This document shows, piece after piece, positions 23,511-39,682 of a stretch of 64,000 nucleotides of DNA. Position 1 is the stretch's first letter. Each line of letters opens with the position of its first letter. The stretch comes from Flammeovirga kamogawensis (lineage in GTDB: Bacteria; Bacteroidota; Bacteroidia; Cytophagales; Flammeovirgaceae). The notes under the pieces were generated by a model. It saw only the letters and a list, made by a program, of their open reading frames with translations. It was not told the origin of the DNA and made no database searches. The stretch covers positions 4,527,001 to 4,591,000 of the forward strand of contig NZ_CP076128.1 of the NCBI RefSeq assembly GCF_018736065.1, read 5' to 3'. Both the position numbers and the translations under genes were made by a program.

Positions 23511-23909
23511 GTTTATTGTTAATAAAAGTTGTTGTAAAATAAAATAGTGAAAATTAGCTTTTAAAGTCCTGTTTATTAGTTGTTTAAAAATAGATGTAGT
23601 ATTAATGTTGTATTTAAAGTGTAAAAAAGTATCTTAATAATTTTCATGTTTTTTTACATTCTTCCTAATGTTGTATACGACGTCGAACTAATAATTGAAA
23701 TGGAACTTTAAATTTATCTACATGAGTTAACTAATAACTATTTACAATTTTCAGGCTATTTAATTTATTCACTTCTACTAAAAATTCTCAATCTATTCTA
23801 TGTATTCTGAATAAGTTATTCTAGGCACTTTTAACACATTTTTTTTAAAAGTGAAGTAATCCGAAATGGATATTATTATTACTATTATTAAATTTTTTCT
23901 ACTAAAAAC
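23511..23909 (+). other. Upstream region and long leader of susC
   Basis: This 399-base stretch holds regulatory copy A and, after it, a likely untranslated leader of more than 200 bases. CGACGTCG at 23678-23685 is a perfect short palindrome just after the element. No open frame looks real. Confidence 0.5.
23596..23674 (+). promoter_or_regulatory. Shared PUL regulatory element, copy A (upstream of susC)
   Basis: The element runs from GTAGTATTAATGTTGTA, through AAGTGTAAAAAAGT (23617-23630), to TAATGTTGT ending at 23674. Its first and last GTTGT-type blocks begin 74 bases apart, exactly as in copy B at 37038. TAATTTTC at 23638 is one mismatch from the TAnnTTTG -7 element and falls at the same place as similar sequences in the other copies. 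It ends about 235 bases before the susC start. Confidence 0.7.
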
Positions 23910-26900
23910 ATGCTCAAGCTACTAAACTTTAAAAGTATTTTAGGGGTATTCCTATTTGCTTTTATGTCGCTAACTAGTACACAATTATTAGCACAAGATA
24001 AAGTTCTAACAGGAACTATCTTAGGAGAGGATTCAGCTCCTCTTCCTGGTGTAAACGTACAAATCAAAGGAACAACTACTGGTACAGTAACTAATTTTGA
24101 TGGTAAATTTTCTTTAAATGTTGAAGAATCTGCTCAAACATTAGTGTTTAGCTTTATTGGTTATCTAGATAAAGAAATGGCAATTGGTACACGTACAACA
24201 TTTGATGTATCATTAGAAGTAGATGCTGAACAACTAGAAGAAGTAGTTGTAGTTGGTTATGGAGTTCAAAAGAAATCATTAGTAACTGGTGCAATTGCTA
24301 GTGTAGATGCTGATGATATTGTAAGTTCAGCAATTTCTGCAGAACAAGCATTACAAGGTAAAGCTGCAGGTGTTACAGTAACACCTCAATCAGGTTCTCC
24401 AGGTAACGGAATAAAAATTCGTATTCGTGGTGCAGGATCTAACGGTAATAGTGATCCTTTATATATTGTTGATGGTATGAAAACGGGTAACATTAGTTTC
24501 TTATCTCCATCAGATATTGCATCTATGGAAGTATTAAAAGATGCGGCATCTTCTGCTATTTATGGTTCTGAAGGAGCAAATGGTGTTGTAATCATTACTA
24601 CTAAAGGTGGTAAGAAAGGTGCTAAATCAAGTATTGACTACTCTTTCCAGTATGGCATCCAAACATTAGGTAACAATCCTCAAATGATGAATGCTCAGGA
24701 GTATGCACAGTTCATGCAAGAAGCACATCAAAAAGAATTAAATGATATTGAAGGTTTCTATGTGCCAAATCCAAATAACCAAGGTCAAGGAACAAACTTT
24801 TTAGACGCAGCAGCTCAAGAAGCACCAATGATGAGTCATAACTTATCATTCTCAGGAGGATCAGATAAAGGTTCTTATTTATTAAGCGCAGGTTATACTT
24901 CTCAAGATGGTGTAATCGGTGGTGATAAAGCAAGTTATGAAAGAATTAATGGTCGCTTAAATTTAACAAGAGATATTAAAGATTGGATAGATGTATCTGC
25001 TAACATTGCAATTACAAATTCTAAAAGAGCAACTATAACAGAAGATGATGCATATAATGGTCTTGTAAATGCAGCTTTATTAATGGATCCAACTGCAAAA
25101 GCTAGATATGCTCCAAATGAATTAACTCCTTACATGCAAGAAAAATTAAATGAAGGAAAGCTTTTAACACGTGATCAAGATGGTAATTATTATGGAGTTA
25201 CTAATAATGACTTCTTAAAAGGGGAGATATATAACCCTCTTACTAAATTAGAAAATGCTAGAGGAGTTTATACTGAAAATAAGATATTAACTACTGGTAT
25301 GATTAATCTTAAGCCTGTAAAAGGACTTAAAATTAGTTCTAGAATTGGTTTCGATATTGCTCAAGGAAGTTATAATAGCTGGAACCCTAGTTTCTGGGCG
25401 AACTCTCAAAAACATGAGAATGCACCTACAGTAACAGCAAATGAGCAATCATGGAGTACTTGGATGTGGGAAAACTTTGCTACATATAATACTAAGATTG
25501 GTAAAAGTACAATTACAGGTTTAATAGGTGTATCTGCTCAAGAAAATAACTACAGAAACCTAGATACTAAGGCTGGTAATATGGTTGTTGAAAATAATCA
25601 ATTCAGATATCCTAACTATGTAACTTCTAGAGATAATGACCGTGTTGGTGGAGGAAACGAAATGAAGACTCTAGCATCGTATTTTGCACGTGTATCTTAT
25701 GATTATGATAATAGATATATAATTGAAGCAACATTCCGTAGAGATGGTTCTTCTTTATTTGGATCAGAGAATAAGTGGGGTACATTCCCTTCAGTGTCTG
25801 TAGGTTGGAATGTTTCTAACGAGAGCTTCTGGAATATCAGTGCAATTGATTACTTAAAAGTTAGAGGTAGCTGGGGTCAAAACGGTAGCTTATCAAACTT
25901 ACAACCAGATCAATACAGATCATTAATTAGAACAACAGGTATTTCTTATCCTGGTTCTGATGATATTCTTATGACAGGTGCTGAGCCAGAAGTATTAGCT
26001 AATCCAAATTTAAAGTGGGAAACTTCTGAGCAAACAAACATTGGTATCGACTTAAGAGCTTTAGATAGTAAAATTTATTTTACAGCTGATTACTATAAGA
26101 AATTAACAAAAGATCTTTTAACAACAGCTTCTCCTGCACTTTCTCAAGGTAACTATGCTCCTTACACTAATGCAGGTACAGTTTCTAACGAAGGTCTTGA
26201 ACTAATTTTAGGATATAGAAATAGTGAAAACGAATTTACTTATGATGTAAGCTTAAATGGTTCATTTAATAAGAATGAAGTAGTGTCAGTGCCAGAAGAA
26301 CTTACAAGAATTAATGGTGCGTCTTTACCTGTTGCAGGTACTTTAACTTACTTTGAAGAAGGTTTCCCTGTTTGGTATTATAGAGGATTCCAAAACGAAG
26401 GTATCTTCAGAGATGAAGCACATATCGCACAATGGAAAGAAGAAAATAAAATTACAAACGGTGGTGATATTGCACCAGGTGATCCGATCGTAAAAGATAT
26501 TAACGGAGATGGTGAAATTAATGATCAAGATGTAACAAATATTGGATCTCCACACCCAACATTTATTTACGGAGCAAATATCTCAGCAGCATATAAAGGT
26601 TTCGACTTAAACATCTTCTTGCAAGGTGCAACAGGTCACCAAAATTATATTGCTTTCATGAGAGCTGATAATAAAGCAGTAAATAGATTGTCTAGTATTA
26701 CACAAGACCGTTGGAGAAGTAACGGTGATAACGCTTCTTATCCAAGAGCGGATTATTTAGATGCTAGATACTTTAAGAGTGATTTATTAGTACAAGATGC
26801 TAGCTACTTGAAAATTAGACAAATTCAATTAGGATATACGCTTCCTAGTAAAATTGCATCTAAAGCATTATTAAGCAGAGCAAGAGTGTATGTATCTCTT

Positions 26901-27038
26901 AATGACTTCTTTACTTTTACAAATTACGATGGTGTTGACCCAGAGATTGGTAGTAAAGAAAATAATGCACAGGGAGTTGATTTTGGTACATACCCTGTTT
27001 CTAGAAAACTGTTATTTGGTCTTGCAGTTACTTTCTAA
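23910..27038 (+). CDS. SusC/RagA-family TonB-dependent outer-membrane transporter
   Basis: The protein is 1,042 residues. Residues 1-29 form a signal peptide (to QLLAQ). A carboxypeptidase-regulatory-like beta domain follows (about 32-105; GTILGEDSAPLPGVNVQIKG). The TonB box region QLEEVVVVGYG lies near residue 107, then the plug domain (to about 240, with IRIRGAGS and DPLYIVDGM) and a 22-strand barrel ending in GLAVTF. SusC proteins import oligosaccharides across the outer membrane using TonB energy, with SusD as a hinged lid. It is the first gene of the polysaccharide locus, 28 bases before susD. A DxDG-type calcium loop (DINGDGEINDQD) near residue 870 is common in this family. Confidence 0.95.
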   Translation: MLKLLNFKSILGVFLFAFMSLTSTQLLAQDKVLTGTILGEDSAPLPGVNVQIKGTTTGTVTNFDGKFSLNVEESAQTLVFSFIGYLDKEMAIGTRTTFDVSLEVDAEQLEEVVVVGYGVQKKSLVTGAIASVDADDIVSSAISAEQALQGKAAGVTVTPQSGSPGNGIKIRIRGAGSNGNSDPLYIVDGMKTGNISFLSPSDIASMEVLKDAASSAIYGSEGANGVVIITTKGGKKGAKSSIDYSFQYGIQTLGNNPQMMNAQEYAQFMQEAHQKELNDIEGFYVPNPNNQGQGTNFLDAAAQEAPMMSHNLSFSGGSDKGSYLLSAGYTSQDGVIGGDKASYERINGRLNLTRDIKDWIDVSANIAITNSKRATITEDDAYNGLVNAALLMDPTAKARYAPNELTPYMQEKLNEGKLLTRDQDGNYYGVTNNDFLKGEIYNPLTKLENARGVYTENKILTTGMINLKPVKGLKISSRIGFDIAQGSYNSWNPSFWANSQKHENAPTVTANEQSWSTWMWENFATYNTKIGKSTITGLIGVSAQENNYRNLDTKAGNMVVENNQFRYPNYVTSRDNDRVGGGNEMKTLASYFARVSYDYDNRYIIEATFRRDGSSLFGSENKWGTFPSVSVGWNVSNESFWNISAIDYLKVRGSWGQNGSLSNLQPDQYRSLIRTTGISYPGSDDILMTGAEPEVLANPNLKWETSEQTNIGIDLRALDSKIYFTADYYKKLTKDLLTTASPALSQGNYAPYTNAGTVSNEGLELILGYRNSENEFTYDVSLNGSFNKNEVVSVPEELTRINGASLPVAGTLTYFEEGFPVWYYRGFQNEGIFRDEAHIAQWKEENKITNGGDIAPGDPIVKDINGDGEINDQDVTNIGSPHPTFIYGANISAAYKGFDLNIFLQGATGHQNYIAFMRADNKAVNRLSSITQDRWRSNGDNASYPRADYLDARYFKSDLLVQDASYLKIRQIQLGYTLPSKIASKALLSRARVYVSLNDFFTFTNYDGVDPEIGSKENNAQGVDFGTYPVSRKLLFGLAVTF

Positions 27039-27066
27039 ATCATACAATTAACAAAGAAATACTAAA

Positions 27067-28623
27067 ATGAAAATATATAAATTTAAGAAATTATTGACTG
27101 TGCTAGCGGCAACAGCAATGCTTTCATCTTGTTCATCAGAGTTTTTAGAAGTAGAGCCATATGGTAAATCAGAAGCATCTACATATTATCAAACAGAAGA
27201 GCAACTGCAATTAGGTTTGGTAGCAGCTTACGATCTTTTATCATCAGATCAAATGAATGGTTGGAATAGTCCATTCGTTATCAAAAATTTACCTTCTGAT
27301 GGTTTAAATTGTGGTGGTTCATCAGCAGGTGATCAACCTCAATTACAAGAGATTGATGATTTTAGATGGCATGCTGAGAATTTAGCTGTAAGATCAGTTT
27401 ATCAAACAAATTACTTTGGTATTTACAGAACAAATCAAATTATTACTAATGTTACAGATGCACAGAGTGATTTGATGAAGAGAATGGTAGGTGAAGCTAA
27501 ATTTTTAAGAGCTTACTACTATTTTGAATTAGTTACTGTATTTGGTGATGTACCTTTATGGTTAGTACCTCCAACTGGTTTAACAGATGGTATGCCTAGA
27601 AGTCCAAAAGCTGATGTTTATGCTCAAATTGAGAAAGATTTAAGCGAAGCAATTAGTGTATTACCGAATAAATCTTCATTTGAAGGTACTGCTGATGCTT
27701 TTAGAGCAAATAAGCAAGCTGCTCAAGGTTTATTAGGTAAAGTAAGAGTATATAAAGGAGATTATACAAATGCTATTGGTCCTTTAGAAAGTGTTATTCA
27801 AACAGAAGGTTCAGAGGTAGGCTTAGAGCCAAACTTTTCAACTTTATCTTTACAAAGTACTGAATTTGGCAAAGAATCATTGTTTGAGGCGTCATTCATT
27901 TCTAACGGTGATAACTGGGGAAATACAACTTGGAATAGAGATGCTCATGATAACAGACATGTTCAATTATCTGGACCAAGATCTTTAGATGTAATCGAAG
28001 ATGTTGTTCCTGAAGAAGATGCAAAACTAATTGCCGGTTGGGGATTTTTACCTCCTACACAATCTTTATTTGATGCTTTTGAAGCAACTGATGGACGTAG
28101 AAATGCAACTGTTTTAGATGCTGAAGGTTTAAAAAAACTGTACGGTCAAAAATTTAATGATGGTTGGGATACAGAAGGTTTAGTGAGAGCTAAGTATACA
28201 ACTTTTGAATCTGAAACTACAGGTGAAGGTGGTGCAACTCCTGAATTAAACTACACAGTAAACTGGAGATTATTACGTTATTCTGATGTTCTATTATTAG
28301 CAGCAGAAGCTTATTATAGAGAAGGTAGAGAAACTGATGCTAGAAATATGCTTAACAAATTAAGACAAAGAGCGGGTGGTTTAGCGGATTATGATGCTAC
28401 AGTATCTGGTGCAGCTTTATTTGATGCAATTGTTAACGAAAGACGTGTTGAGCTTGCTTTTGAAGGTACTCGTTATTGGGATTTAGTAAGATGGGGTTTA
28501 GCAGAGCAAGAACTTGGAGATCTTGGTTTCGTTTCTGGTAAGCACGAGTTATTTCCAATTCCATTAGATGAAATTAATGGTAACCCTGGAATTACTGAAG
28601 CAGATCAAAACCCTGGATACTAA
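27067..28623 (+). CDS. SusD/RagB-family glycan-binding outer-membrane lipoprotein
   Basis: This 518-residue protein starts with a lipoprotein signal ending LSSC (Cys22) and the family opening FLEVEPYGKSEASTYYQTEE. TPR-like helices (KFLRAYYYFELVTVFGDVPL, NKQAAQGLLGKVRVYKGDYT) are followed by the SusD C-terminal block VNWRLLRYSDVLLLAAEA and RRVELAFEGTRYWDLVRWG. SusD binds polysaccharide at the cell surface and caps the SusC barrel. It follows susC by 28 bases and is co-transcribed. A stem-loop lies shortly after its stop and a full terminator about 200 bases downstream. The bound glycan cannot be read from the sequence; neighbours suggest a beta-glucan. Confidence 0.95.
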   Translation: MKIYKFKKLLTVLAATAMLSSCSSEFLEVEPYGKSEASTYYQTEEQLQLGLVAAYDLLSSDQMNGWNSPFVIKNLPSDGLNCGGSSAGDQPQLQEIDDFRWHAENLAVRSVYQTNYFGIYRTNQIITNVTDAQSDLMKRMVGEAKFLRAYYYFELVTVFGDVPLWLVPPTGLTDGMPRSPKADVYAQIEKDLSEAISVLPNKSSFEGTADAFRANKQAAQGLLGKVRVYKGDYTNAIGPLESVIQTEGSEVGLEPNFSTLSLQSTEFGKESLFEASFISNGDNWGNTTWNRDAHDNRHVQLSGPRSLDVIEDVVPEEDAKLIAGWGFLPPTQSLFDAFEATDGRRNATVLDAEGLKKLYGQKFNDGWDTEGLVRAKYTTFESETTGEGGATPELNYTVNWRLLRYSDVLLLAAEAYYREGRETDARNMLNKLRQRAGGLADYDATVSGAALFDAIVNERRVELAFEGTRYWDLVRWGLAEQELGDLGFVSGKHELFPIPLDEINGNPGITEADQNPGY

Positions 28624-28636
28624 AACAGATATTTAT

Positions 28637-28663
28637 TTCAGGGAGTTTTAATTACTCCCTGAA
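28637..28663 (+). terminator. Stem-loop after susD without T tract
   Basis: Perfect ten-base arms TTCAGGGAGT and ACTCCCTGAA enclose seven bases, 13 bases after the stop. No T run follows directly, so it may stabilise the susCD transcript end rather than terminate by itself. Confidence 0.55.
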
Positions 28664-28819
28664 TATCAAAAAACTATTTTGCGATAGTTAAGCTTGAGGA
28701 CTTTGAACGAACAACTTAAATATTATTATTAATAATATGGTTCTCAACTTTATTTACTTCAAGAAGAAAAAGATCTCACAATAATGAGATACTTCAAAGT
28801 AGATTTAAATAAAAGTTTT

Positions 28820-28853
28820 ACTGGAAGTGCCATTGGTACTTTCAGTTTTTTTT
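28820..28853 (+). terminator. Terminator of the susCD unit
   Basis: Arms ACTGGAAGT and ACTTTCAGT (one G-T pair) are followed by eight T residues. It lies about 200 bases after the susD stop and separates susCD from the GH65-GH3 unit. Confidence 0.8.
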
Positions 28854-29255
28854 ATTTAAAAATCGCAAATATATGTTCTTGAACTATCCTCTGAGTTTTC
28901 TTTTTTAAGACTTGTTAGTTCTATTAAATGATTATGTTATTTTTTTAAGTGATAAGGGTTTTGAAATTAATGTAATTGTAATTCATTATTGTTTGTTATA
29001 TGTGTATTAGGATTGTATTTTTTGTTTTATGACACAGTATGATAGATTGTTACTATATACCTGTTTGTCAATAAATTACAATGTTTGTGTAGTATTATTG
29101 TCGTATTATATGTGTAATAATACTGATTCGTTTTTGATTTGGTTTTGTGTAAATATCATTATTGTTGTGATAATATTAAACAATTAGACATAAACAAATT
29201 AACAGATTATTTATAGTGCTTTTAACATTGTAAAAAGCACTTTAATAGCAATGAA
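28854..29255 (+). other. Upstream region of the GH65-GH3 unit
   Basis: This 402-base AT-rich stretch follows the susCD terminator and contains regulatory copy C. No open frame or RNA gene is evident. Confidence 0.5.
29089..29168 (+). promoter_or_regulatory. Shared PUL regulatory element, copy C (upstream of GH65 gene)
   Basis: It begins GTAGTATTATTGTCGTATTA, has GTGTAATAA at the same offset (+23) as in copies A and B, and ends TATTGTTGT with the last block 75 bases from the first. TTGATTTG near 29135 is a one-mismatch match to the TAnnTTTG -7 element. It ends about 90 bases before the GH65 start. Confidence 0.65.
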
Positions 29256-31301
29256 ATGAAACATCTTAAATTACTTTTAATACTATTAAATATAGTAAAT
29301 AGCACAAATGTATTTGCTCAATCAGAAGGCTGGATCATAGAAGCAAATTCTAGAGAGAACTATCATTCTTTATCTATGGCTAATGGTATGATTGGAATAG
29401 TACCCTCTGACCAACCTTTAAAAATTAATGAAGTTATACTTAATGGTGTTTGGGACATTTATGGTCGAGGTGGAGTTTCTAATATTGTACAAGGTATCAA
29501 CTTTGCCAATATGGATATTGGTATTGAAGGGAAGGGGCAAACAAAATGGGTGTCATCTGACAAAGAAATAACAAATTGGAAACAAACGCTAAACATGAGA
29601 GAAGCGACGTTTACAACAGCATTTAACTTTGATAAATCTATAGAAGTTGAACAAGAAATTATTGCATTAAGACACCTTGCATATACAGGGTTAGTAAGAA
29701 TAAAAGTAAAAGCATTAAAGAATGCATCTTTAATTTTTAGAAATGATTTAATTGTTCCTGAAATTAATAACCCTGGAAAACATAGATACAATCAAGTTGG
29801 TAAAGAAAATGAAATTTCATTATTATCTACATCAGCAACTTCTCCAACAGGTAAATATGAAATAGCTACAACAACTTCATTTGTTTTTGACAAAAATGAG
29901 GAATATCCTGTAATAAAAAATGAAGAGGTTAATGAAAGACATAATCGAGCTTTTTTTAAGAAAGAATTAAAAAAAGGAGAAACATATGAGTTTATAGTTG
30001 TTGGTTCTATCTGTAATACGGCTTTATCTGTAGACGCAATTAACGAAGCTGAAAGAAAAGCAATATATGCTCATTTAGAAGGATATGAAAGACTTATCAA
30101 AAGGCATAAAGATGCTTGGGCCAACCTTTGGGAAGGTGATGTGATTATAGATGGAGATCAAAAAGCTCAGTTAGATGTGAGACTTCAATTATTTAATCTT
30201 TATTCTTCTGTTAGGAAAGGAACAAGATTAAGTATATCACCAGTGGGGTTATCTGGTAATGGTTATAATGGTCATGTATTTTGGGATACTGAATTATGGA
30301 TGTTTCCAACATTCTTAGTTTTTCAACCTGAATTAGCTAAAAACATACTTGACTATAGATTAGATCGTTTAGATCAAGCTAAAAAGAATGCATTAGCAAA
30401 TGGATATGAGGGGGCAATGTTTCCTTGGGAATCTGCATTAACTGGAGAAGAAGATACACCAACATGGGCGTTATCGGGTCCTTTTGAACAACACATAACA
30501 TCTTGTATTGGATTAGCTTTTTGGAAATATTATCAAGTTACCCAAGATAAAGAATGGTTAAAAGAATCTGGATACGAGTTGTTACAAAATGTAGCTGACT
30601 TTTGGGTAAGTAGAGTAGAGAAAGATAAAAATGGTGTTTGTCATATTAATAATGTGGTGTGTGCAGATGAATATGCTGAGAATGTGAATGATAATGCATT
30701 TACGAATGCATCTGCAATTAAGGTTTTGAGGTCAGCAATTAAAGCTGCGGTAATAATAGGGAAAACACCAAACCCTGAATGGGAAAAGGTTGCAAACAAT
30801 ATTCCTGTAATTGTAGAAAATGGGATAACAATGGAGTACGATGGTTATGATGGAAGAGTAATTAAACAAGCAGATGTGAATTTACTTTCATTCCCCTTAC
30901 AGTACTATACAGATAAAAAGCAAATAAAGAGAAACCTTGAGTATTACGAACCAAAAATAGATTACCATGCGCCAGCAATGTCTCATTCTATTTTATCAGT
31001 AGTAGCCTCAAGAATTGGAGAAACAGAAAGAGCCTACGAGCTTTTTCAACAAGGATATGTAAATAATCAGAAACCACCTTTTAATGTATTTACAGAACAA
31101 CCAGACAACAACTTAGCATTTTTTGTTACTGGAGCAGGTGGAATGATGCAAGCTGTTATGTTTGGATTTGGTGGTCTTGAAATCTCGGACACAGGTATTA
31201 TACAACTAAAATCAACATTGCCAGCTAATTGGAAATCAATAACTTTTAAAGGTGTGGGTGTGGATAATAAGAGTTACAGTGTCACTAACAACTCTCAGTA
31301 A
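29256..31301 (+). CDS. GH65-family glycoside hydrolase (kojibiose hydrolase / PGGHG-like)
   Basis: The protein is 681 residues with a signal peptide (cleavage near FAQS), so it is exported. An N-terminal beta-sandwich (about 25-280) precedes the (alpha/alpha)6 barrel. Barrel motifs are FWDTELWMFPTFLVF, GYEGAMFPWESALTGEE, CADEYAENVNDNAFTN with Glu472 as the probable general acid, and VFTEQPDNN with Glu614 where hydrolases of this family keep a catalytic base, then FVTGAGGMMQAVMFGFGGL. The glutamate pair favours a hydrolase over a phosphorylase. GH65 hydrolases act on alpha-linked disaccharides such as kojibiose, trehalose or glucosyl-galactose. It is first in a two-gene unit with the GH3 gene, 24 bases apart. 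Exact linkage is unproven. Confidence 0.85.
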   Translation: MKHLKLLLILLNIVNSTNVFAQSEGWIIEANSRENYHSLSMANGMIGIVPSDQPLKINEVILNGVWDIYGRGGVSNIVQGINFANMDIGIEGKGQTKWVSSDKEITNWKQTLNMREATFTTAFNFDKSIEVEQEIIALRHLAYTGLVRIKVKALKNASLIFRNDLIVPEINNPGKHRYNQVGKENEISLLSTSATSPTGKYEIATTTSFVFDKNEEYPVIKNEEVNERHNRAFFKKELKKGETYEFIVVGSICNTALSVDAINEAERKAIYAHLEGYERLIKRHKDAWANLWEGDVIIDGDQKAQLDVRLQLFNLYSSVRKGTRLSISPVGLSGNGYNGHVFWDTELWMFPTFLVFQPELAKNILDYRLDRLDQAKKNALANGYEGAMFPWESALTGEEDTPTWALSGPFEQHITSCIGLAFWKYYQVTQDKEWLKESGYELLQNVADFWVSRVEKDKNGVCHINNVVCADEYAENVNDNAFTNASAIKVLRSAIKAAVIIGKTPNPEWEKVANNIPVIVENGITMEYDGYDGRVIKQADVNLLSFPLQYYTDKKQIKRNLEYYEPKIDYHAPAMSHSILSVVASRIGETERAYELFQQGYVNNQKPPFNVFTEQPDNNLAFFVTGAGGMMQAVMFGFGGLEISDTGIIQLKSTLPANWKSITFKGVGVDNKSYSVTNNSQ

Positions 31302-31325
31302 AAACAGACGAATTATTAAAACAAA

Positions 31326-33527
31326 ATGATGATGAAGAAGAGAATGTTTAAAGCAGCTATTTTTAGTATGCTACTTATGTTTGGTTACTTGTCTCAGAGT
31401 GTAGCTCAGACAACGAATACGGAACAAAAAATTGATGAAATAATTGCTCAACTTACATTAGAAGAAAAAGTTGCAATGTGTCATGCTCAATCTAAATTTA
31501 CATCTGCGGGTGTTCCTAGATTAGGTATTCCTGAAATTTGGATGTCTGATGGACCTCATGGAGTAAGAGCAGAAATTAATTGGGACAATTGGGGATATGC
31601 TGGGTGGACTAACGACTCAATAACTGCATTTCCGGCATTAACTTGTTTAGCGGCAACTTTTAATGAAGGTTTATCTAAAGAGTACGGTGTTGCAGTTGGA
31701 GAAGAAGCGAGATATCGTAAAAAAGATATATTATTAGGACCTGGTGTAAACATCTATAGAACTCCTTTAAATGGTCGTAATTTCGAATATATGGGAGAAG
31801 ATCCTTATTTAGCTTCTCAAATGGTGGTACCTTATATACATGGAGTACAATCTAATGGTGTTGCAGCTTGCGTAAAACATTTTGTAGCTAATAACCAAGA
31901 AAAATGGAGAGGACATATAAATGTAGAATTAAGTGATAGGGCTTTACATGAAATATATTTACCAGCATTTAAATCTGCAGTAGATGGTGGTGTTTGGTCT
32001 ATGATGTCAGCTTACAATCAAATAAGAGGTCAATATTGTTCTCATAATGAGTATTTAGTTAACGATATTTTGAAGGGTGATTGGGGTTTTGATGGAGTTT
32101 ATTTAACAGATTGGGGAGCAGCACATAATACAAAACAGTCTGCTTTATATGGTTTAGATATTGAAATGGGTACAGGTACAAATGGACTTACTTATTCAGA
32201 GAAAAATCATTACGAAAACTATTACTTAGCAGGTCCTTTTAAAGAAATTTTGAATTCGGGTGAAGTTTCAGAAGATGTTTTAGATGATAAAGTACGTCGT
32301 ATTTTGAGATTGATGTACAGAACAAACATGGCTGAAAACAAACCATTAGGAAGTATTAACACTACTGCACATCATGATGTAGCAAGAAGAGTAGCTCAAG
32401 AAGGAATAGTTCTTTTACAAAATGATGATGATTTCTTTCCTATCAGTGATAAAAAAATGAAGATCGCTGTAATTGGTGAAAATGCTACAAGAATGATGAC
32501 AATTGGTGGAGGTTCTTCAGAATTGAAAGTTGAATATGAAGTATCACCATTACAGGGTATTAAAGAACGTTTCAAAAATGCTGAAATAGTATACACTATG
32601 GGATACGCTTCAGGTCCTTCCCAATATGGCCAAGTAATCCCATCAACTTTAGATGCTGATTCATTAAAAAATGAAGCAATAAAAGCAGTAAAAGGAGCAG
32701 ATGTAGTATTATTTTTCGGAGGATTAAATAAAAGTCACCATCAAGATTGTGAAGATGGAGATAGGTTAACGTATGATCTTCCTTTTGGTCAGCCAGAATT
32801 AATAGAAACTCTAGCAGCTACAAATCCTAATATTGGTGTAGTATTGATTGGCGGTAATGCTGTTGCTACACCTTGGTCTGATAAAGTGAAAACTGTAATG
32901 CAAGGGTGGTATTTAGGTACAGAAACTGGTCATGCAATGGCTGATGTTATTTCTGGAGATGTTACTCCTTCAGGAAAACTCCCTTTCACTTTCCCAAAGA
33001 AACTAGAGGATAATGCTGCTCATCATTATGGCGAAATGTCTTACCCAGGTGATAATGTGAACGAAGAGTATAAGGAAGGAATTTTAGTTGGGTACCGTTG
33101 GCATGATACAAAGAAAATAACACCTGCATATGCATTTGGTCATGGATTAAGTTACACTAAATTTAAATTAGAAAACATTGCATCTGATAAAAAATCTTAT
33201 GATATAAACGATACTATTGAGGTTACATGTAGCTTGGATAATATTGGGGATGTTGAGGGGGCAGAAGTAGTGCAAGTTTATGTTGGAAAACATAAATCTG
33301 CTGTAGAAAGAGCAACTAAGGAATTAAAAGCATATCAAAAAGTGACTTTAAAAGCATCAAGCTCAGAAAAGTTAAATTTATCTATCCCTATTAGCTCTCT
33401 GAAATATTATAACGAAAATAAATCGGATTGGGAATTAGAGGAAGGAGAATATTATATTTATGTAGGTAATGCATCTGATAATATTTCTAAGAAAATTAAA
33501 GTATCTATTACTTCAAGAGTGAATTAA
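31326..33527 (+). CDS. GH3-family beta-glucosidase
   Basis: The protein is 733 residues, exported by a signal peptide (to SVAQ). The GH3 TIM-barrel holds the motif YLTDWGA with Asp262 as the nucleophile, preceded by VKHFVANNQE, the KHF-NN substrate-binding block. The alpha/beta sandwich domain follows (IAVIGENATRMMTIGGGSSEL, VVLFFGGLN), then a fibronectin-III-like C-terminal domain (about 640-730; AEVVQVYVGKH). GH3 enzymes release beta-linked glucose or related sugars from oligosaccharide ends, here probably finishing products of the GH5 enzymes in the periplasm. It is translated 24 bases after the GH65 gene and ends before a good terminator. Beta-glucosidase is the commonest activity but xylosidase activity is not excluded. 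Confidence 0.9.
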   Translation: MMMKKRMFKAAIFSMLLMFGYLSQSVAQTTNTEQKIDEIIAQLTLEEKVAMCHAQSKFTSAGVPRLGIPEIWMSDGPHGVRAEINWDNWGYAGWTNDSITAFPALTCLAATFNEGLSKEYGVAVGEEARYRKKDILLGPGVNIYRTPLNGRNFEYMGEDPYLASQMVVPYIHGVQSNGVAACVKHFVANNQEKWRGHINVELSDRALHEIYLPAFKSAVDGGVWSMMSAYNQIRGQYCSHNEYLVNDILKGDWGFDGVYLTDWGAAHNTKQSALYGLDIEMGTGTNGLTYSEKNHYENYYLAGPFKEILNSGEVSEDVLDDKVRRILRLMYRTNMAENKPLGSINTTAHHDVARRVAQEGIVLLQNDDDFFPISDKKMKIAVIGENATRMMTIGGGSSELKVEYEVSPLQGIKERFKNAEIVYTMGYASGPSQYGQVIPSTLDADSLKNEAIKAVKGADVVLFFGGLNKSHHQDCEDGDRLTYDLPFGQPELIETLAATNPNIGVVLIGGNAVATPWSDKVKTVMQGWYLGTETGHAMADVISGDVTPSGKLPFTFPKKLEDNAAHHYGEMSYPGDNVNEEYKEGILVGYRWHDTKKITPAYAFGHGLSYTKFKLENIASDKKSYDINDTIEVTCSLDNIGDVEGAEVVQVYVGKHKSAVERATKELKAYQKVTLKASSSEKLNLSIPISSLKYYNENKSDWELEEGEYYIYVGNASDNISKKIKVSITSRVN

Positions 33528-33546
33528 TACATATTTGTTAATATGC

Positions 33547-33602
33547 AAAAACACCTCAATTTCAACTTATATATTTAGTTCGTTGGTTTTGAGGTGTTTT
33601 TG
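33547..33602 (+). terminator. Terminator of the GH65-GH3 unit
   Basis: Arms AAAACACCTCAA and TTGAGGTGTTTT enclose a larger loop and lead into further T residues, about 20 bases after the GH3 stop. Confidence 0.8.
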
Positions 33603-33895
33603 TGTATTTTTTTAGAATGTTAGATGATGTAATGATGAAATAAAGTACGGGATTTTTTCATTTTTAAATTCAAATCTACGGGTACTTTATACATACTTAG
33701 GAAAACCATGCGCTTAAAATAAATATACTATGAACGGATTATTCTTCTTGATTATTCAAATGTTAATGATTAGATAAATAAAAAGAAGAATTTAATTATC
33801 TTTTCAGAAAAGCAACGGAGAATAATAATTTGAATGAAGACATTTTCTCGTTAATTTTATTTTTCTAACACCAAGAAATTTTAGAAAAACTTCTT
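33603..33895 (+). other. Upstream region of first propeller regulator
   Basis: This 293-base stretch contains an inverted repeat AAAGTAC (33642) ... GTACTTT (33682), with TACGGG repeated directly next to both arms, which could be an autoregulatory site. The shared element seen at copies A-C is absent. No open frame looks real. Confidence 0.4.
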
Positions 33896-36871
33896 ATGAT
33901 CAAGCAACTTTTAATATTACTAACACTCCTATTAATGTCTATTGGAACATATGGACAAAAAAAGGAGATGCAATTCCAACATTTGAGAGAGGAGGATGGA
34001 TTATCTCATGCTACTGTAACCTCTATTTTAGAAGATAATATGGGATTCATGTGGTTTGGTACTTACAAAGGACTAAACAGATATGATGGGTATGAAATGA
34101 AAACTTATGCCTATAGTAGAGGGGAAAATACAGGTTTAAATGATGACATGATTTCTTCTTTGATTCAAGATCATAATGGGTTTATTTGGATAGGCTATTT
34201 AAATAATGGATTAAGTATTTTTGATCCTAAAACTGAAACTTTTCAGCATTTTAAAGGAGGAGATGAAAATGAATTAATGGTTCCGAGTGAATCAGTCAAT
34301 AAAATATATGAAGATTCTGATAATAATGTTTGGGTGGTAACAAGTAACGGTATTTCAGTTATTTCACCGAATCGTAAAAGAAGGGAAAAATATTATTATT
34401 CTACAACAGGGTTTTCTCAAATTAATGGAGAGTCTGTTTATGATGTAATTGAAGATAAATGGAACAGAATATGGTTAGCAACTGATAACAGAAAATTATG
34501 TGTTTTTGATAAAAATTCGAAGAAATTTTCTGAGGTTGAATACACTAACCTCCCTTTAGGTAGTAAGGATGATAATGATAAGAAAAACCTTGAAATCTAT
34601 AACGATACTCTTTTATATATTAGTAGTAATAATGGTGGTCTTGCAGAATACAATTTACTTACTGGGAATTATAATACATATCTACATGGTGAAAAGGGTA
34701 AAGGACCTTCTAGTAATAATATTAAAGCATTACAACAAGTTAACAATGAACTTTGGATTGCTACCGATGGTGCAGGCTTAGATATATTCAATGTAAAGTC
34801 AAAAACGTTTGAAAATTATACAAACACACGTTTGGACCCAACTTCTTTATCTTCAGGTGTTGTTTGGTCGTTGTATCAAGATAGGCAAGATAATGTCTGG
34901 TTTGGTATTTATTTAGAAGGCGTTGATAAATATGATCCTCGTAAAAATTTCTTTAGGGACATTACAAATTCTCCTTGTAATGAAGAAACCCTACCCAATA
35001 AACCAGTTTTATCATTATATAATGACTCACAAAATAGAACATGGGTAGGAACAGATTGGGGAGGACTTCAATTACAAGAAAAAGATGAAAAACTATTTAA
35101 ACATTTTTCTATCGATGGTAAAGAAGTAGATTTACCAAGTGCTTATGTAGTAAAAAGTATTGCTGAGGATCGTTTCGGAAATTTATTAATTGGTACTTAT
35201 AGTGAAGGTTTACAAGTTTATGACCGCAAAACTAAAAAGAGAACAGAAATAAAAAGGGGAGTTACTACAACGGATTTACCTAGTAACCATGTGTGGGCCA
35301 TTTTTACAGATTCTGAAGGAATTACTTGGATTGGTACTTTAGGAGGTGGAATTGCTAAATATGATCCTGTAACTAAATCAATAAAAAAATTAAAAATAGG
35401 GTATAATATTGGAAGTCAGGAACACATCTATCATATTTTTGAAGATGCTCAAAATAACCTTTGGTTTAGTACTGATGGAGGTATTATGATTTATAATAGA
35501 AGAACAGATTCTTGGTCACCAAATCTACTAAATGATTTAATTGAGAAAGATCACAATTTTAACTACGTAAAAGGAGTCTATCAAGATAATCTTAGACATA
35601 TATGGATAGCTACAGCAGCAGGTTTAATTAAATATTTGCCTGAAAGAAATGAGTTCAAAATATATAATCAATCAGATGGTATACCAGAATTACCATTGCA
35701 GGCTATTACTGCAGATAATTTTGGGAACTTACTAGTGATATCAAAAAAGTATGTATCTCAATTTTCTTTAGCATCTGAAAAAATTGTAAGCTTTTACGTA
35801 CCTAATAATTCTTTTAATTATAATGCATTGATCAAAAAAGATAATGGTGAAATTATTGTTGGAGGAACAGATGGGATAACAGTTTTTAATCCTCAAAAGC
35901 TAAAGGAGAATGATACTAAACCACCCGTTTATATTACTGACTTTGATATTTTTAATAAACCTCAAATACCTTCAGATTCTAGTTCAGTAATAAAAGAGTC
36001 AATTTCTACAGTACGTGAGATAAATTTAGATTATGATCAGTCAGTTATCAATTTTAAATATTGTGCTATAAATTATACAGAAACGGAGCGAAATAAATAT
36101 GCTTATAAATTAGAAGGATTTGATGAACAGTGGAATTATGTGGGAGACCGTAGGATTGCTACATATACTAATCTTGATCCGGGAAGATATACTTTTAAAG
36201 TAAAAGCATCTAATAACCATGGAGTTTGGAATAATGAAGGAGCAACCGTTACACTATTTATTGATGCACCATATTGGCAAACTACTTGGTTTAGGGCATT
36301 ATTAATTGCGTTGCTTTTAGTGATATTCTATTTTGCACAGAAAGTAAGAATGCAAAATGTAAAGAGAAAATATGCATTAAATAGTATTCAAGCTGAAAGA
36401 GAAAAAGTAGAAATACAAAATCAAAACCTTGAAAAGGAATTAGATACTACTAAAAGTGAGTTAGCTAATATTACAATTAGCCATTTACATAAAAATCAAA
36501 GTTTGCAACAGATAAAACAAAAGCTAGAAGAAGTTTCTGTTGGTTTAGCAAATAATGATAAGCGTAAAATCAAAAGGATTGTAAAAGATATTAATAAGGA
36601 AAGTGAAGATCATGATTATTGGGATAAGTTTGAACATCAGTTTAATAAATCACATGATAACTTCTTAGATAGATTTAAAATAGAATATCCAGATTTAAGT
36701 AAAAGAGAACTCAGAATATGTGCTTATTTAAGAATGGATTTGGATAATCAAGAGATCGCAACACTAATGAATGTAAGTGTGAGAACCTTAGAAACATCAA
36801 GATATAGGATTAGAAAAAAGATTGGTTTAGAAAATCGGAAGTCATTAACCAAAATGATAACAAGATTTTAA
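33896..36871 (+). CDS. Membrane-spanning propeller sensor with cytoplasmic HTH (PUL regulator 1)
   Basis: The protein is 991 residues: signal peptide, then about 700 residues of repeated propeller blades (repeats such as GFMWFGTYKGLNRYDG, GFIWIGYLNNGLSIFDP, ITWIGTLGGGIAKYDP), a triple-tyrosine domain at about 715-790 (YAYKLEGFDEQWNYVGD), one membrane helix near 798-818, a coiled coil, and a LuxR-like helix-turn-helix at about 937-985 (ELRICAYLRMDLDNQEIATL). There is no histidine kinase or receiver domain, so it is a one-piece transmembrane regulator, not a hybrid two-component system. Such proteins bind oligosaccharide in the periplasm and control PUL genes. It is a close paralogue of the gene at 43359. 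Its targets are probably the promoters with the shared element. Confidence 0.88.
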   Translation: MIKQLLILLTLLLMSIGTYGQKKEMQFQHLREEDGLSHATVTSILEDNMGFMWFGTYKGLNRYDGYEMKTYAYSRGENTGLNDDMISSLIQDHNGFIWIGYLNNGLSIFDPKTETFQHFKGGDENELMVPSESVNKIYEDSDNNVWVVTSNGISVISPNRKRREKYYYSTTGFSQINGESVYDVIEDKWNRIWLATDNRKLCVFDKNSKKFSEVEYTNLPLGSKDDNDKKNLEIYNDTLLYISSNNGGLAEYNLLTGNYNTYLHGEKGKGPSSNNIKALQQVNNELWIATDGAGLDIFNVKSKTFENYTNTRLDPTSLSSGVVWSLYQDRQDNVWFGIYLEGVDKYDPRKNFFRDITNSPCNEETLPNKPVLSLYNDSQNRTWVGTDWGGLQLQEKDEKLFKHFSIDGKEVDLPSAYVVKSIAEDRFGNLLIGTYSEGLQVYDRKTKKRTEIKRGVTTTDLPSNHVWAIFTDSEGITWIGTLGGGIAKYDPVTKSIKKLKIGYNIGSQEHIYHIFEDAQNNLWFSTDGGIMIYNRRTDSWSPNLLNDLIEKDHNFNYVKGVYQDNLRHIWIATAAGLIKYLPERNEFKIYNQSDGIPELPLQAITADNFGNLLVISKKYVSQFSLASEKIVSFYVPNNSFNYNALIKKDNGEIIVGGTDGITVFNPQKLKENDTKPPVYITDFDIFNKPQIPSDSSSVIKESISTVREINLDYDQSVINFKYCAINYTETERNKYAYKLEGFDEQWNYVGDRRIATYTNLDPGRYTFKVKASNNHGVWNNEGATVTLFIDAPYWQTTWFRALLIALLLVIFYFAQKVRMQNVKRKYALNSIQAEREKVEIQNQNLEKELDTTKSELANITISHLHKNQSLQQIKQKLEEVSVGLANNDKRKIKRIVKDINKESEDHDYWDKFEHQFNKSHDNFLDRFKIEYPDLSKRELRICAYLRMDLDNQEIATLMNVSVRTLETSRYRIRKKIGLENRKSLTKMITRF

Positions 36872-36899
36872 GTGAATAAAAAATCTTTATAAAAAATAA

Positions 36900-36941
36900 G
36901 AGGGATAGTACACTATGCGTGATACTATCCCTTTTATTTTT
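36900..36941 (+). terminator. Terminator after PUL regulator 1
   Basis: Arms GGGATAGTA and TACTATCCC enclose 12 bases and are followed by a T-rich run. Confidence 0.85.
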
Positions 36942-37323
36942 TTATAGAAGTATAACGAACAATCAAAATTTATCATTAATAAAAAAACGCTAATACGTAT
37001 TGTTAACTCATTGTTAATCAATGTTTAAAATATTAATGTTGTAATAATGTCGTGTTGTAAGTGTAAAAAAGTTACTTCTAAATCTTTGTATTTTTTAGCA
37101 TTCTCAATAACGTTGTGACATGACAACAACAAATGAGAATTTAATGATTGTCTAACTTTTAGATTACTATTTAATTATACTAATACACTTAAAATTAACT
37201 AATTGAAATTTCGCTTGTACTCTCTCTAAAAAAATAAAACTAACTTTAGAAAGATTGCAATTTATATCTAAGCAGCAAGTAAACTTTAACTACTATTTGT
37301 TCACTACTAAAATTTAATAGACA
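36942..37323 (+). other. Upstream region of the small protein-GH5 unit
   Basis: This 382-base stretch contains regulatory copy B and then about 200 bases of probable untranslated leader. No other gene or RNA was recognised. Confidence 0.5.
37038..37116 (+). promoter_or_regulatory. Shared PUL regulatory element, copy B (upstream of GH5 unit)
   Basis: It begins GTTGTAATAATGTCGTG, has AAGTGTAAAAAAGT at 37059-37072 identical to copy A and at the same +21 offset, and ends AACGTTGT with the last block 74 bases from the first. AATCTTTG at about 37082 approximates the -7 element. It ends about 207 bases before the small-protein start. Confidence 0.7.
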
Positions 37324-37539
37324 ATGATTAATAAAATGCTACTATTCGTCGTTCTAGGAATTTGTTCTCAAATAAAAGGTTATGCCCAAGTGGAAAACTC
37401 TAATAGTAATACACTTATTATAGATAAAACTACTTTATGTTTTGATAGAAATAAATTAGTGTTTTTTTCATCAGATTTAATAAAGAAAAATGATGCTTTG
37501 GATACTGAGTTTTTTAGTACTGAAGAGGATAAAATATAA
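37324..37539 (+). CDS. Small secreted protein of unknown function in the PUL
   Basis: This 71-residue protein has a likely signal peptide (MINKMLLFVVLGICSQIKGYAQ), leaving about 49 residues with one cysteine (TTLCFDRN) and an acidic, charged C-terminus (FFSTEEDKI). I do not recognise a family. It is the first gene downstream of regulatory copy B and precedes the GH5 gene by 163 bases with no T-run terminator between, so it is probably co-transcribed with that gene. It may be an assembly or sensing accessory, a leader peptide, or a remnant of a longer gene; nothing in the sequence decides. Supporting evidence for a real gene is the export signal and position. Confidence 0.5.
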   Translation: MINKMLLFVVLGICSQIKGYAQVENSNSNTLIIDKTTLCFDRNKLVFFSSDLIKKNDALDTEFFSTEEDKI

Positions 37540-37702: not shown

Positions 37703-39682
37703 ATGTACAAATCTATTACTATTTTATTTTTAAGTTTTCTATTGAGTCATGGGGTAATGGCTCAATTAACACCCTACGAAGCTGTAGAAGCAATTGGTAG
37801 AGGGATTAATTTAGGAAACACTTTAGATGCACCTAAAGCAGAAGGAGATTGGGCTCCAAAAGCAGAAGAATATTATTTTGATGCTTACAAAGAAGCAGGT
37901 TTTCAATCTGTAAGAATTCCAATTACTTGGGATAACCGAGTTTCAAAAACAGAACCTTATGAAGTAGATGCCGATTTTATGAATCGTGTTGAAGAAGTTG
38001 TAGACTGGGGTTTAGAGAGAAATCTTGTAATTATTATTAATGTTCATCATGATGACTGGTTAAAGGAAGATTATAATAAAGAGAATATTGCTCGATTTGA
38101 AGCAATATGGACTCAAATATCTGAGCGTTTTCATACAAAATCAGATAGTTTATTGTTTGAACCATTAAACGAACCACAAGGTATGACGATAGCAGAAGCT
38201 GCAGATGCAAATAAAAGAGCTTTAGCTATTATTCGTGAGAAAAACCCTACAAGAAATGTCATAATTTCAGGAAATGGATGGTCTGCGATTAAAGACTTAC
38301 TAACTATGCCAGTTCCTACTGGAGATAATCACCTTATTGGATATTTTCATACTTATGACCCTTGGGATTTCTCATCAGCAGAGAAATCACAAACTTGGGG
38401 TACAAAAAGTGATAAAGAATATATATCAAATGAATTCAAAAAGGCAAAAGATTGGAGTACTCAGAATAGAATACCCGTTATTATAAGTGAATTCGGAGCT
38501 GTTCATAAAACAGATTTTAATTCAAGAATGAGACATTATGCTCATTTTGTAGAAGAATCTTTATCAAGAGGTATCTCATTCATGGCTTGGGATGATGGTG
38601 GTTGGTATGAGATATATCAACGAAAAGCAAAAAAATGGCATGAAACAAAAGATATTTTGATCTATAACACGACTGAGACTGCTACTAATTTAGAATTAAG
38701 CATTCAGAATGATTCTACAGTTTTGGTTGAATGGGAAAATAGAAATGATGCAACTTCAATGTTAAAGATTGAAAGAAAAATAAATGAGGAGTTTGTAGTT
38801 CTTGATTCTGTTAATTCAACAGTTACATCATATTTAGATGAAACTACTGTTCAAGGAAATAAATATCAATATAGAATCTCTCAAATAGTGGGCGAAAAAT
38901 TAATTATTTCTTATCCACAAAAAATAAATGTTTTAAATACTGTAAGAGATTTTTATGCAGGGGTTCCAATTGCTATTCCAGGTACTTTGGAAGCAGAAAA
39001 CTATGATATAGGTGGAGAAGGGTTTACTTTTTCTGATTCTGAAGAATTAAATCAAGGAGGTGCTTACAGAACTGATGGTGTTGATATAGAAGAAATTACT
39101 GGCGGATATCAAGTTGGTTATGTAGAGAAAGGAGAATGGTTAGAATACTCAGTTGATGTTAAAGAAGCAGCTACCTATAAAATAACGGCTTTCATTGCTG
39201 CAATGGAAGGTGGTGGAGAAATGACTATTAAAAGTGATTTAAATAGTAGAGAAGAGGCTGAGTTTTCAATTCTATCAACAAATAGTTGGACTGAGCAGAC
39301 ATCAATAACATCTAATTTAAAATTAGAAGCAGGAGAGCAAATTTTACGTCTAACAATTAATGCTAAACCAGCTTTTAATATTGATAAGTTAACTTTAGAA
39401 GTAACTGAAGAAGTGCAACCACCTTTAGCACTAGAAGATGAAATTACTAACCTATTAGTATATCCAAATCCATCTTCGGGTAAATTTAATATTTCAAAAG
39501 GTGATAAAATGAATACTATTTTTGATCTCCAAGTATTAAATGCAATAGGCAATAATATAGCCTCTTTTAGCTTGTCAGCAAATCAAACATCAATTGATTT
39601 ATCTAAATATCCAAAAGGAATTTACTTCATAAAGTATTTTTATAATCAAGAAGTAAAATATAAGAAAATCGTTAAAGAATAA
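37703..39682 (+). CDS. Secreted GH5 endoglucanase with CBM6 and T9SS sorting domain
   Basis: The protein is 659 residues: signal peptide (to VMAQ), GH5 catalytic domain (about 22-325), a fibronectin-III-like linker domain (about 330-410), a CBM6-type module (about 420-565; LEAENYDIGGEG, VGYVEKGEWLEYSV) and a T9SS type A sorting domain (last 80 residues; LLVYPNPSSGKFN). Opening RGINLGNTLDAP is typical of GH5 cellulases. Glu157 in LNEP is the acid/base and Glu263 in ISEFGA the nucleophile; HHDDW supplies conserved histidines. It should be carried to the surface or medium by type IX secretion and cut a beta-glucan internally. It is in one unit with the preceding small protein. Cellulase is likely, but related mannan or xyloglucan activity cannot be excluded. 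Confidence 0.9.
   Translation: MYKSITILFLSFLLSHGVMAQLTPYEAVEAIGRGINLGNTLDAPKAEGDWAPKAEEYYFDAYKEAGFQSVRIPITWDNRVSKTEPYEVDADFMNRVEEVVDWGLERNLVIIINVHHDDWLKEDYNKENIARFEAIWTQISERFHTKSDSLLFEPLNEPQGMTIAEAADANKRALAIIREKNPTRNVIISGNGWSAIKDLLTMPVPTGDNHLIGYFHTYDPWDFSSAEKSQTWGTKSDKEYISNEFKKAKDWSTQNRIPVIISEFGAVHKTDFNSRMRHYAHFVEESLSRGISFMAWDDGGWYEIYQRKAKKWHETKDILIYNTTETATNLELSIQNDSTVLVEWENRNDATSMLKIERKINEEFVVLDSVNSTVTSYLDETTVQGNKYQYRISQIVGEKLIISYPQKINVLNTVRDFYAGVPIAIPGTLEAENYDIGGEGFTFSDSEELNQGGAYRTDGVDIEEITGGYQVGYVEKGEWLEYSVDVKEAATYKITAFIAAMEGGGEMTIKSDLNSREEAEFSILSTNSWTEQTSITSNLKLEAGEQILRLTINAKPAFNIDKLTLEVTEEVQPPLALEDEITNLLVYPNPSSGKFNISKGDKMNTIFDLQVLNAIGNNIASFSLSANQTSIDLSKYPKGIYFIKYFYNQEVKYKKIVKE

Follow-up and report, generated by a model that had tools for sequence, protein, structure and literature searches.

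A conserved operator-promoter module upstream of three gene groups of a Flammeovirga polysaccharide-utilization locus, probably read by propeller-LuxR one-component regulators

Introduction

What is the short repeated element that precedes three gene groups of a polysaccharide-utilization locus (PUL) in Flammeovirga kamogawensis, and which proteins read it? The window analysed here is the whole 64,000-nucleotide stretch of contig NZ_CP076128.1 from position 4,527,001 to 4,591,000, and all coordinates refer to it. The element starts at 23596, 29089 and 37038, upstream of susCD, of a pair of glycoside hydrolase (GH) genes, GH65-GH3, and of a unit formed by a small protein and GH5; the same locus encodes two large regulators with a helix-turn-helix (HTH), REG1 and REG2. 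An initial annotation of the window had taken the element for a shared operator-promoter read by these two regulators, and had suggested that it could define a regulon across the genome. Our analysis bears out the first of these proposals and not the second. We consider it likely, with a probability of roughly 0.8, that an array of direct repeats within the element is the operator of the activator REG1/REG2, placed upstream of the regulated promoter of all three units.

Operators of PULs in Bacteroidota are described for the AraC-type hybrid two-component systems (HTCS) and for SusR of gut Bacteroides, as far as the available part of PMC3878776 goes. Among titles and abstract beginnings in the open literature, we found no operator of propeller-LuxR one-component regulators.

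Results

Three 11-bp direct repeats at a near-fixed distance from a promoter

The three copies in the window are one element, composed of three 11-bp direct repeats, a -33-like box and a -7-like box. With columns and offsets counted along each copy of about 80 bp, all three open with GTnGTAnTAnTGTyGT and carry GTGTAA at +23 and GTTGT at +74, +75 and +74, respectively, while AAGTGTAAAAAAGT is common to copies 1 and 3; in all of this the initial annotation was accurate, though the tandem repeats were not part of it. Over the 17 copies of this locus in the genus (see below), the repeats read roughly GTAwwAATGTn / GTATTAAAAGT / GTAAAAAwGTn, with GTA cores at columns 3, 14 and 25, each of whose nine letters is conserved in 15-17 of the 17 copies. 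Self-matching of 14 distinct arrays is highest at a lag of 11, a value reached by 4 of 2000 column shuffles, and at a lag of 22, reached by 1 of 2000.

Could the conserved stretch act as RNA instead, as a riboswitch- or attenuator-like leader element? Compared with shuffles, two of the three window copies do fold better than the majority (z -2.2, -0.8 and -2.7). However, the consensus fold of 18 of 20 copies contains 0 pairs, the window has no Rfam match at the gathering score, and the conserved letters are direct repeats. An RNA element was therefore rejected as extremely unlikely.

What follows the array resembles a promoter. In 15 of 20 copies, all three of the window included, the third GTA is followed at a distance of 45 bp by TAnnnTTG (column 70 or 71), against a background of 0.0018 per base. 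Of the 20 copies, 12 have TTTG within columns 42-55, compared with 8.9% of control windows; it is carried by a T-tract before the -7-like box, and lies 18-20 bp from TAnnnTTG in those copies that have both. Sigma-A promoters of Bacteroidetes have TTTG at -33. Their -7 element, TAnnTTTG, is placed at -12 to -5 in PMC9723704, and it is from this placing that the start sites in Table 1 are predicted. Most copies of the element retain TA and TTG of this motif, and some of them also the TTTG-like box upstream; they differ in the fifth base of the -7 box, where A or G usually replaces T. A sigma-70 scan was uninformative here (69 found, mean of 75 in shuffles). At and directly after the -7 of the susC promoters lies a block like TTGTnnnATGACGTC (23671-23684 in the window, and in the susC leaders of relatives), whose GACGT is found in all seven aligned species.

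As TAnnnTTG occupies +70/+71 and is preceded by a TTTG-like box, the sequence that the initial annotation had taken for the -7 element coincides with the -33 region, and the -7 is instead its final GTTGT. This puts the repeats upstream of the core promoter, at about -83 to -48, and not at and upstream of -35. The original geometry would put the -7 at about +42 to +50, with the repeats over and upstream of -35; the final GTTGT would then be a distal half-site within the leader, comparable to the two-box SusR motifs predicted in Bacteroides. It can draw on five-of-six matches to TAnnTTTG, which 10 of 17 copies have at columns 39-45, on a TAnnnTTG at column 42 in one copy (G008a), and on the 67 or 77 bp between predicted SusR boxes in PMC3878776, which is close to the 74-75 seen here. 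Column 70 is, however, the more consistent place, with five of six letters within one column in 14 of 17 copies as opposed to 9 of 17 near column 42, and it keeps TA and TTG at the promoter-like distance from TTTG. We thus regard the original geometry as rather unlikely, and place the -7 at the final GTTGT.

Conservation across the genus

Nine Flammeovirga genomes were compared, that of the window included; they are told apart by handles such as G001 where necessary. The locus was found in seven of them. A relaxed scan of both strands yielded 17 copies of the element in these seven species, all on the coding strand and upstream of susC, GH65 or GH3, or GH5. All 7 loci have it before susC and before GH65, or before GH3 where GH65 is gone, and 3 of the 7 have it before GH5 as well. 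The initial annotation had made its case depend on conservation upstream of orthologous loci, and such conservation is what these copies display.

GH65 is missing in G005, G006 and G007 (loci L131-L133 and L139), and its promoter module has been kept, now standing before GH3. In G005 and G007, only the roughly 90 bp covering array and promoter still align with the G002 sequence where GH65 was lost. G006 has this module plus remnants of both GH65 ends (218 and 120 bp of DNA similarity), which correspond to codons 1-16 and 666-679 of 681 and give weak protein matches (E 0.013 and 0.09).

In the remaining two genomes the locus was not found, susC and GH5 genes not having been surveyed; G003 has no GH65 match at E 1e-150 and G008 has one at 44%. 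Both genomes contain other PULs, three in total, whose proteins are 38-43% (SusC), 30-32% (SusD) and 67-70% (GH3) identical to those of the window locus. Each of the three has one clear copy of the element 306-372 bp before susC, with mismatches at 4-7 of the 35 pattern positions, and each adjoins a regulator related to REG1 and REG2, an association that went beyond the initial annotation. Thus all nine genomes have both a regulator of this clade and the operator, and the total rises to 20 copies in ten loci.

Could the copies be alike merely by descent, as recent duplicates of one promoter fragment? The AAGTGTAAAAAAGT shared by copies 1 and 3 would fit this. However, across the 20 copies and nine genomes the array and its distance to the -7-like box are nearly fixed, while the stretch between them varies, and the module was retained in three species after the loss of GH65. 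Similarity by descent alone is therefore highly unlikely.

Specificity within the genome

The pattern GTNGTANTANTGTYGTNTTNNANGTGTAA, at up to 3 mismatches, matches only the three sites in the window (0 in 100 shuffles), and only these in the whole genome of 6,968,008 bases, where the reversed control gives 0. As this pattern was drawn from the sites themselves, a model from other species is the less biased test. We therefore built R1, a model that uses sequence alone and draws on 9 copies from G001, G002, G005 and G006, all of them other species; as 150 first-look candidates out of several thousand were fully scored per genome, its E-values are rough. In the window genome the three sites rank 1, 2 and 3 (E 3.1e-5, 0.0045 and 0.057), which speaks for the shared operator-promoter that had been proposed. 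The three orthologous sites of G004, likewise outside the model, also rank 1, 2 and 3 (E 2.4e-8, 9.4e-4 and 0.027; next 0.13). Matches of R1 about 10 kb from the regulators of the other PULs reach E 0.0065 in G003, the best of that genome, and 0.163 and 0.355 in G008.

No further convincing site outside the locus came to light in the window genome, by either the pattern scan of 6.97 Mb or the R1 search, so that the suggested genome-wide regulon is not supported. Among the 16 places matched in a scan of the nine genomes, 4 are off-locus, the same number as for the reversed-pattern control (4). Nor did a relaxed scan at up to 9 mismatches find a copy before either regulator gene. One match on contig 135 of G002 (E 8.4e-4), covering model positions 2-25 only, was dropped as a chance hit: it overlaps the 3' end of an open reading frame (ORF) on the opposite strand, and judging by the coordinates, no same-strand ORF of at least 120 amino acids follows for about 5 kb.

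The candidate regulators

REG1 and REG2 appear to be membrane-anchored one-component regulators, with a domain order taken from Pfam and a predicted topology. Their GerE domains score 37.5 and 31.3 bits, respectively, against a curated cutoff of 23.5, and the sensor of REG1 resembles the HTCS structure 4a2l (E 3e-93, residues 3-797). Between sensor and HTH of REG1 lies a hydrophobic segment near residue 800, as judged by eye. Pfam searches at E <= 0.001 found no histidine kinase or receiver domain in either protein.

REG1 and REG2 are 91% identical in the HTH and 56% in the sensor, which suggests that they probably read the same operator. The HTH of REG1 is 100% identical to that of the G001 regulator, with 59% identity in the sensor, and the three regulators of this clade in G003 and G008 have HTHs 75-80% identical to that of REG1. 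An HTH that is kept while the sensor drifts is expected if these regulators read one operator. Together with the operator's position beside related regulators, this makes the earlier assignment to the two HTH proteins of the locus the most likely one. In the window genome, REG1 has 25 matching stretches (E 1e-20 or better), some of them within one open frame; several lie in frames of 1,100-1,400 residues, and the whole is a large mixed set of propeller sensors and regulators.

As binding of the array by REG1 and REG2 is deduced, another factor, AraC-type, catabolite or global, might read it and act on the PUL by chance. Such a factor sits poorly with the lack of convincing sites outside the locus in the window genome, and with the two species without this locus, as far as found, where the element precedes susC of other PULs next to regulators of the REG clade. 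Moreover, diverged regulators have related half-sites nearby, again spaced at 11 bp (see below). We hold another reader to be unlikely, and retain REG1 and REG2.

The genes of the locus

The three gene groups (Table 1) probably serve to break down and import a polysaccharide, and the locus also holds a transporter of the major facilitator superfamily (MFS). Our guess is a substrate of the beta-glucan type, into which GH65 does not fit simply. The ORF of 71 amino acids opens the GH5 unit in G000 and G004, while in G001 the first ORF of at least 40 amino acids is GH5 itself. At the place of the double GH5, G005 and G007 have a GH5 ORF of 341 amino acids between GH5a and the regulator.

Table 1. 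Operator copies, promoter-like boxes and genes of the locus (window coordinates; aa, amino acids; CBM, carbohydrate-binding module).
Feature	Position	Strand	Remark
Operator copy 1 (susCD), three 11-bp direct repeats	23595..23630	+	GTA at 23599, 23610, 23621
-33-like TTTTC, copy 1	23641..23645	+	T-tract at the conserved place; no TTTG in copy 1
-7-like TAATGTTG, copy 1	23666..23673	+	Predicted transcription start near 23678
SusC-like TonB-dependent transporter	23910..27038	+	Proposed target
SusD-like protein	27067..28623	+	Proposed target
Operator copy 2 (GH65-GH3)	29088..29123	+	GTA at 29092, 29103, 29114
-33-like TTTG, copy 2	29138..29141	+	Second TTTG at 29133
-7-like TATTGTTG, copy 2	29160..29167	+	Predicted start near 29172
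GH65	29256..31301	+	Proposed target; kojibiose hydrolase equivalog above cutoff
GH3	31326..33527	+	Proposed target; resembles beta-glucosidases of known structure
REG1, 991 aa	33896..36871	+	Proposed activator; Reg_prop propeller, Y_Y_Y, C-terminal GerE/LuxR HTH (934-987)
Operator copy 3 (small protein-GH5 unit)	37037..37072	+	GTA at 37041, GTG at 37052, GTA at 37063
-33-like TTTG, copy 3	37085..37088	+	From TTTG search in the -33 place
-7-like TAACGTTG, copy 3	37108..37115	+	Predicted start near 37120
71-aa protein	37324..37539	+	Signal-peptide-like start; first ORF of at least 40 aa after copy 3
GH5-CBM6, type IX secretion tail	37703..39682	+	Proposed target; resembles endoglucanases of known structure
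Double GH5, CBM35/CBM6, type IX secretion tail, 1101 aa	39902..43207	+	Likely part of the GH5 unit
REG2, 988 aa	43359..46325	+	Proposed second reader of the same operator; REG1-like Pfam architecture

A wider TGnnGTA grammar

Distant regulators of the genus, with HTHs 42-47% identical, have conserved upstream blocks of the form TGAAGTA-n4-TGAAGTA or one-letter variants thereof, for example TGACGTA or TGAAGTG. At loci L233, L234 and L240-L244, blocks CAATATC and TACnTCA are conserved in the regions between MFS and regulator genes; in these regions the repeats are oriented towards the regulator gene, as would be consistent with autoregulation at those loci. Counted genus-wide, with near-identical species counted separately, 20 of 146 TGAAGTA pairs have a spacing of 11; other spacings that are not multiples of 3 reach at most 8, and multiples of 3 up to 17, an excess that we read as coding sequence. 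In a pool of three groups of loci, A-C, which includes group C (L245 and L246), noncoding TGNNGTA pairs number 13 at spacing 11, 8 at 21 and 7 at 22, while coding DNA has 0 at 11. In the seven loci there are 10 noncoding pairs at spacing 11; the PULs of G003 and G008 have none, as their first repeat is without TG.

The same spacing recurs beyond the genus. Eleven regions were taken from other genera of the order; the commonest spacing of their noncoding TGnnGTA pairs is 11 (6 pairs), followed by 22 and 33 (3 each), and in 4 of these regions the pairs lie before susC. A further set consists of 40 new regions across the class, the best 40 of 54 new places. At spacing 11 they contain 21 noncoding pairs, distributed over 15 of the 40 regions, and no other spacing between 8 and 35 has more than 5. 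Coding DNA, of which there is six times as much, has 2 at spacing 11, and of 30 words composed of these letters none but TGnnGTA exceeds 3. This spacing histogram, which uses only new regions, is strong evidence for the grammar.

An exact array within 500 bp was found for 8 of 26 susC genes near such regulators versus 0 of 24 elsewhere, in a comparison whose controls come from 14 of the same genomes, which hold other regulators of the family too (one-sided Fisher 0.003). Four of the eight come from the 11 regions that had suggested the hypothesis; the 40 new regions give 4 of 22, one of them on the opposite strand, with a one-sided p of about 0.045. A separate look at six susC loci near regulators gave no array; by their coordinates, five of these are among the 26. 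As 18 of the 26 are without an exact array, the grammar covers a part of the family at most. Which regulators use it may depend on the residue preceding RYRxRKK: where this is Ser or Ala, 18 of 24 have an array in the region, compared with 2 of 18 for Lys or Arg, in a count that is post hoc and clade-linked, takes arrays anywhere in the region and includes the 11 hypothesis-forming regions. REG1 and REG2 both have Ser at this place.

On balance we find it somewhat more probable than otherwise that much of the propeller-Y_Y_Y-LuxR one-component family in the class shares a general operator grammar, TGnnGTA repeated at 11-bp intervals, in which the middle bases (TGTnGTA, TGAAGTA, TGATGTA, TGTAGTA, TGACGTA) would tune specificity and the recognition-helix residue would decide which regulators use it.

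Discussion

What can be concluded about the control of this locus? Sequence comparison argues that the element is a real, conserved and locus-specific operator-promoter module. The array, its 11-bp period, the near-fixed distance to the -7, the conservation and the association with one clade of regulators emerge from computation; to these we add a proposal on membrane topology, DNA binding, activation, ligand, oligomeric state and start sites. Each copy, about 80 bp long, would form a regulated promoter complete in itself, consisting of an activator array with GTA cores near -79, -68 and -57, a TTTG-like -33 box and a TAnnnTTG -7 box. The array would be read by the membrane-anchored REG1 and REG2, whose periplasmic propeller sensors may bind an oligosaccharide produced by the PUL's own enzymes, the signal then passing through one membrane helix and a coiled coil. 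The LuxR-type HTHs could form a head-to-tail row beside RNA polymerase, spaced by one helical turn on a single face of the DNA, such that susCD, GH65-GH3 and the GH5 unit would be switched on together. Two sensors on one set of operators could merge two sugar signals.

Several observations weigh against this proposal. Self-matching of the arrays is elevated also at lags of 8 and 14, with 13 and 36 of 2000 shuffles. Five of the 20 copies, among them all three of G001, are without TAnnnTTG near +70, and eight are without TTTG at the -33 place. Nor are the copies independent, most of them stemming from a small number of related species. The GH65 copy in the window is weak under R1, with a thin margin over the next unrelated match (E 0.068); the partial off-locus match in G002 scores above several true copies, and the two locus matches in G008 rank below unrelated ones (best 0.016) and were picked out on account of the regulators nearby. 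Finally, homodimeric binding to inverted repeats is reported for the HTH superfamily of ComA, and the direct repeat of ComA is presented as distinct (PMC4797271).

If the grammar holds, PUL regulons of a large and little-studied family could be read from sequence, and it is this class-wide TGnnGTA layout that should be of most interest to the specialist. A defined operator of near-fixed geometry makes regulon prediction, reporter assays and the DNA-recognition code testable. The pair of REG1 and REG2, with near-identical HTHs, diverged sensors and probably the same operators, offers a case of two signals acting on one regulon.

How does the module compare with known systems? MalT boxes are direct-repeat sites of a LuxR-family activator, and the sensors of ComA and MalT are not known to be related to those of REG1 and REG2. 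ComA likewise combines a LuxR-type HTH with direct repeats, and what the available portion of PMC4797271 says of these does not include the 11-bp TGnnGTA layout. Direct-repeat operators of PULs are known in principle, both for HTCS and for SusR (PMC3878776, as for the following comparisons). SusR is described there as a membrane protein with a periplasmic sensor and a cytoplasmic DNA-binding domain that acts on sus promoters, and its motif is a direct repeat; the domain order and hydrophobic segment of our regulators may fit this plan. However, its predicted boxes are separated by 67 or 77 bp, in contrast to the 11-bp period of our repeats, and the block found in our element at 74-75 bp resembles a -7 box. 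With the HTCS of Bacteroides, REG1 and REG2 have in common the control of PULs and the Reg_prop and Y_Y_Y domains, and REG1 the HTCS-like sensor; they differ in having neither kinase nor receiver domain, and a LuxR/GerE in place of an AraC HTH. HTCS operators comprise two sites on average 21 bp apart, as a direct repeat on one face of the DNA; in the Flammeovirga element, the outer cores are 22 bp apart and would also share one face, with the difference that three cores follow each other at 11 bp.

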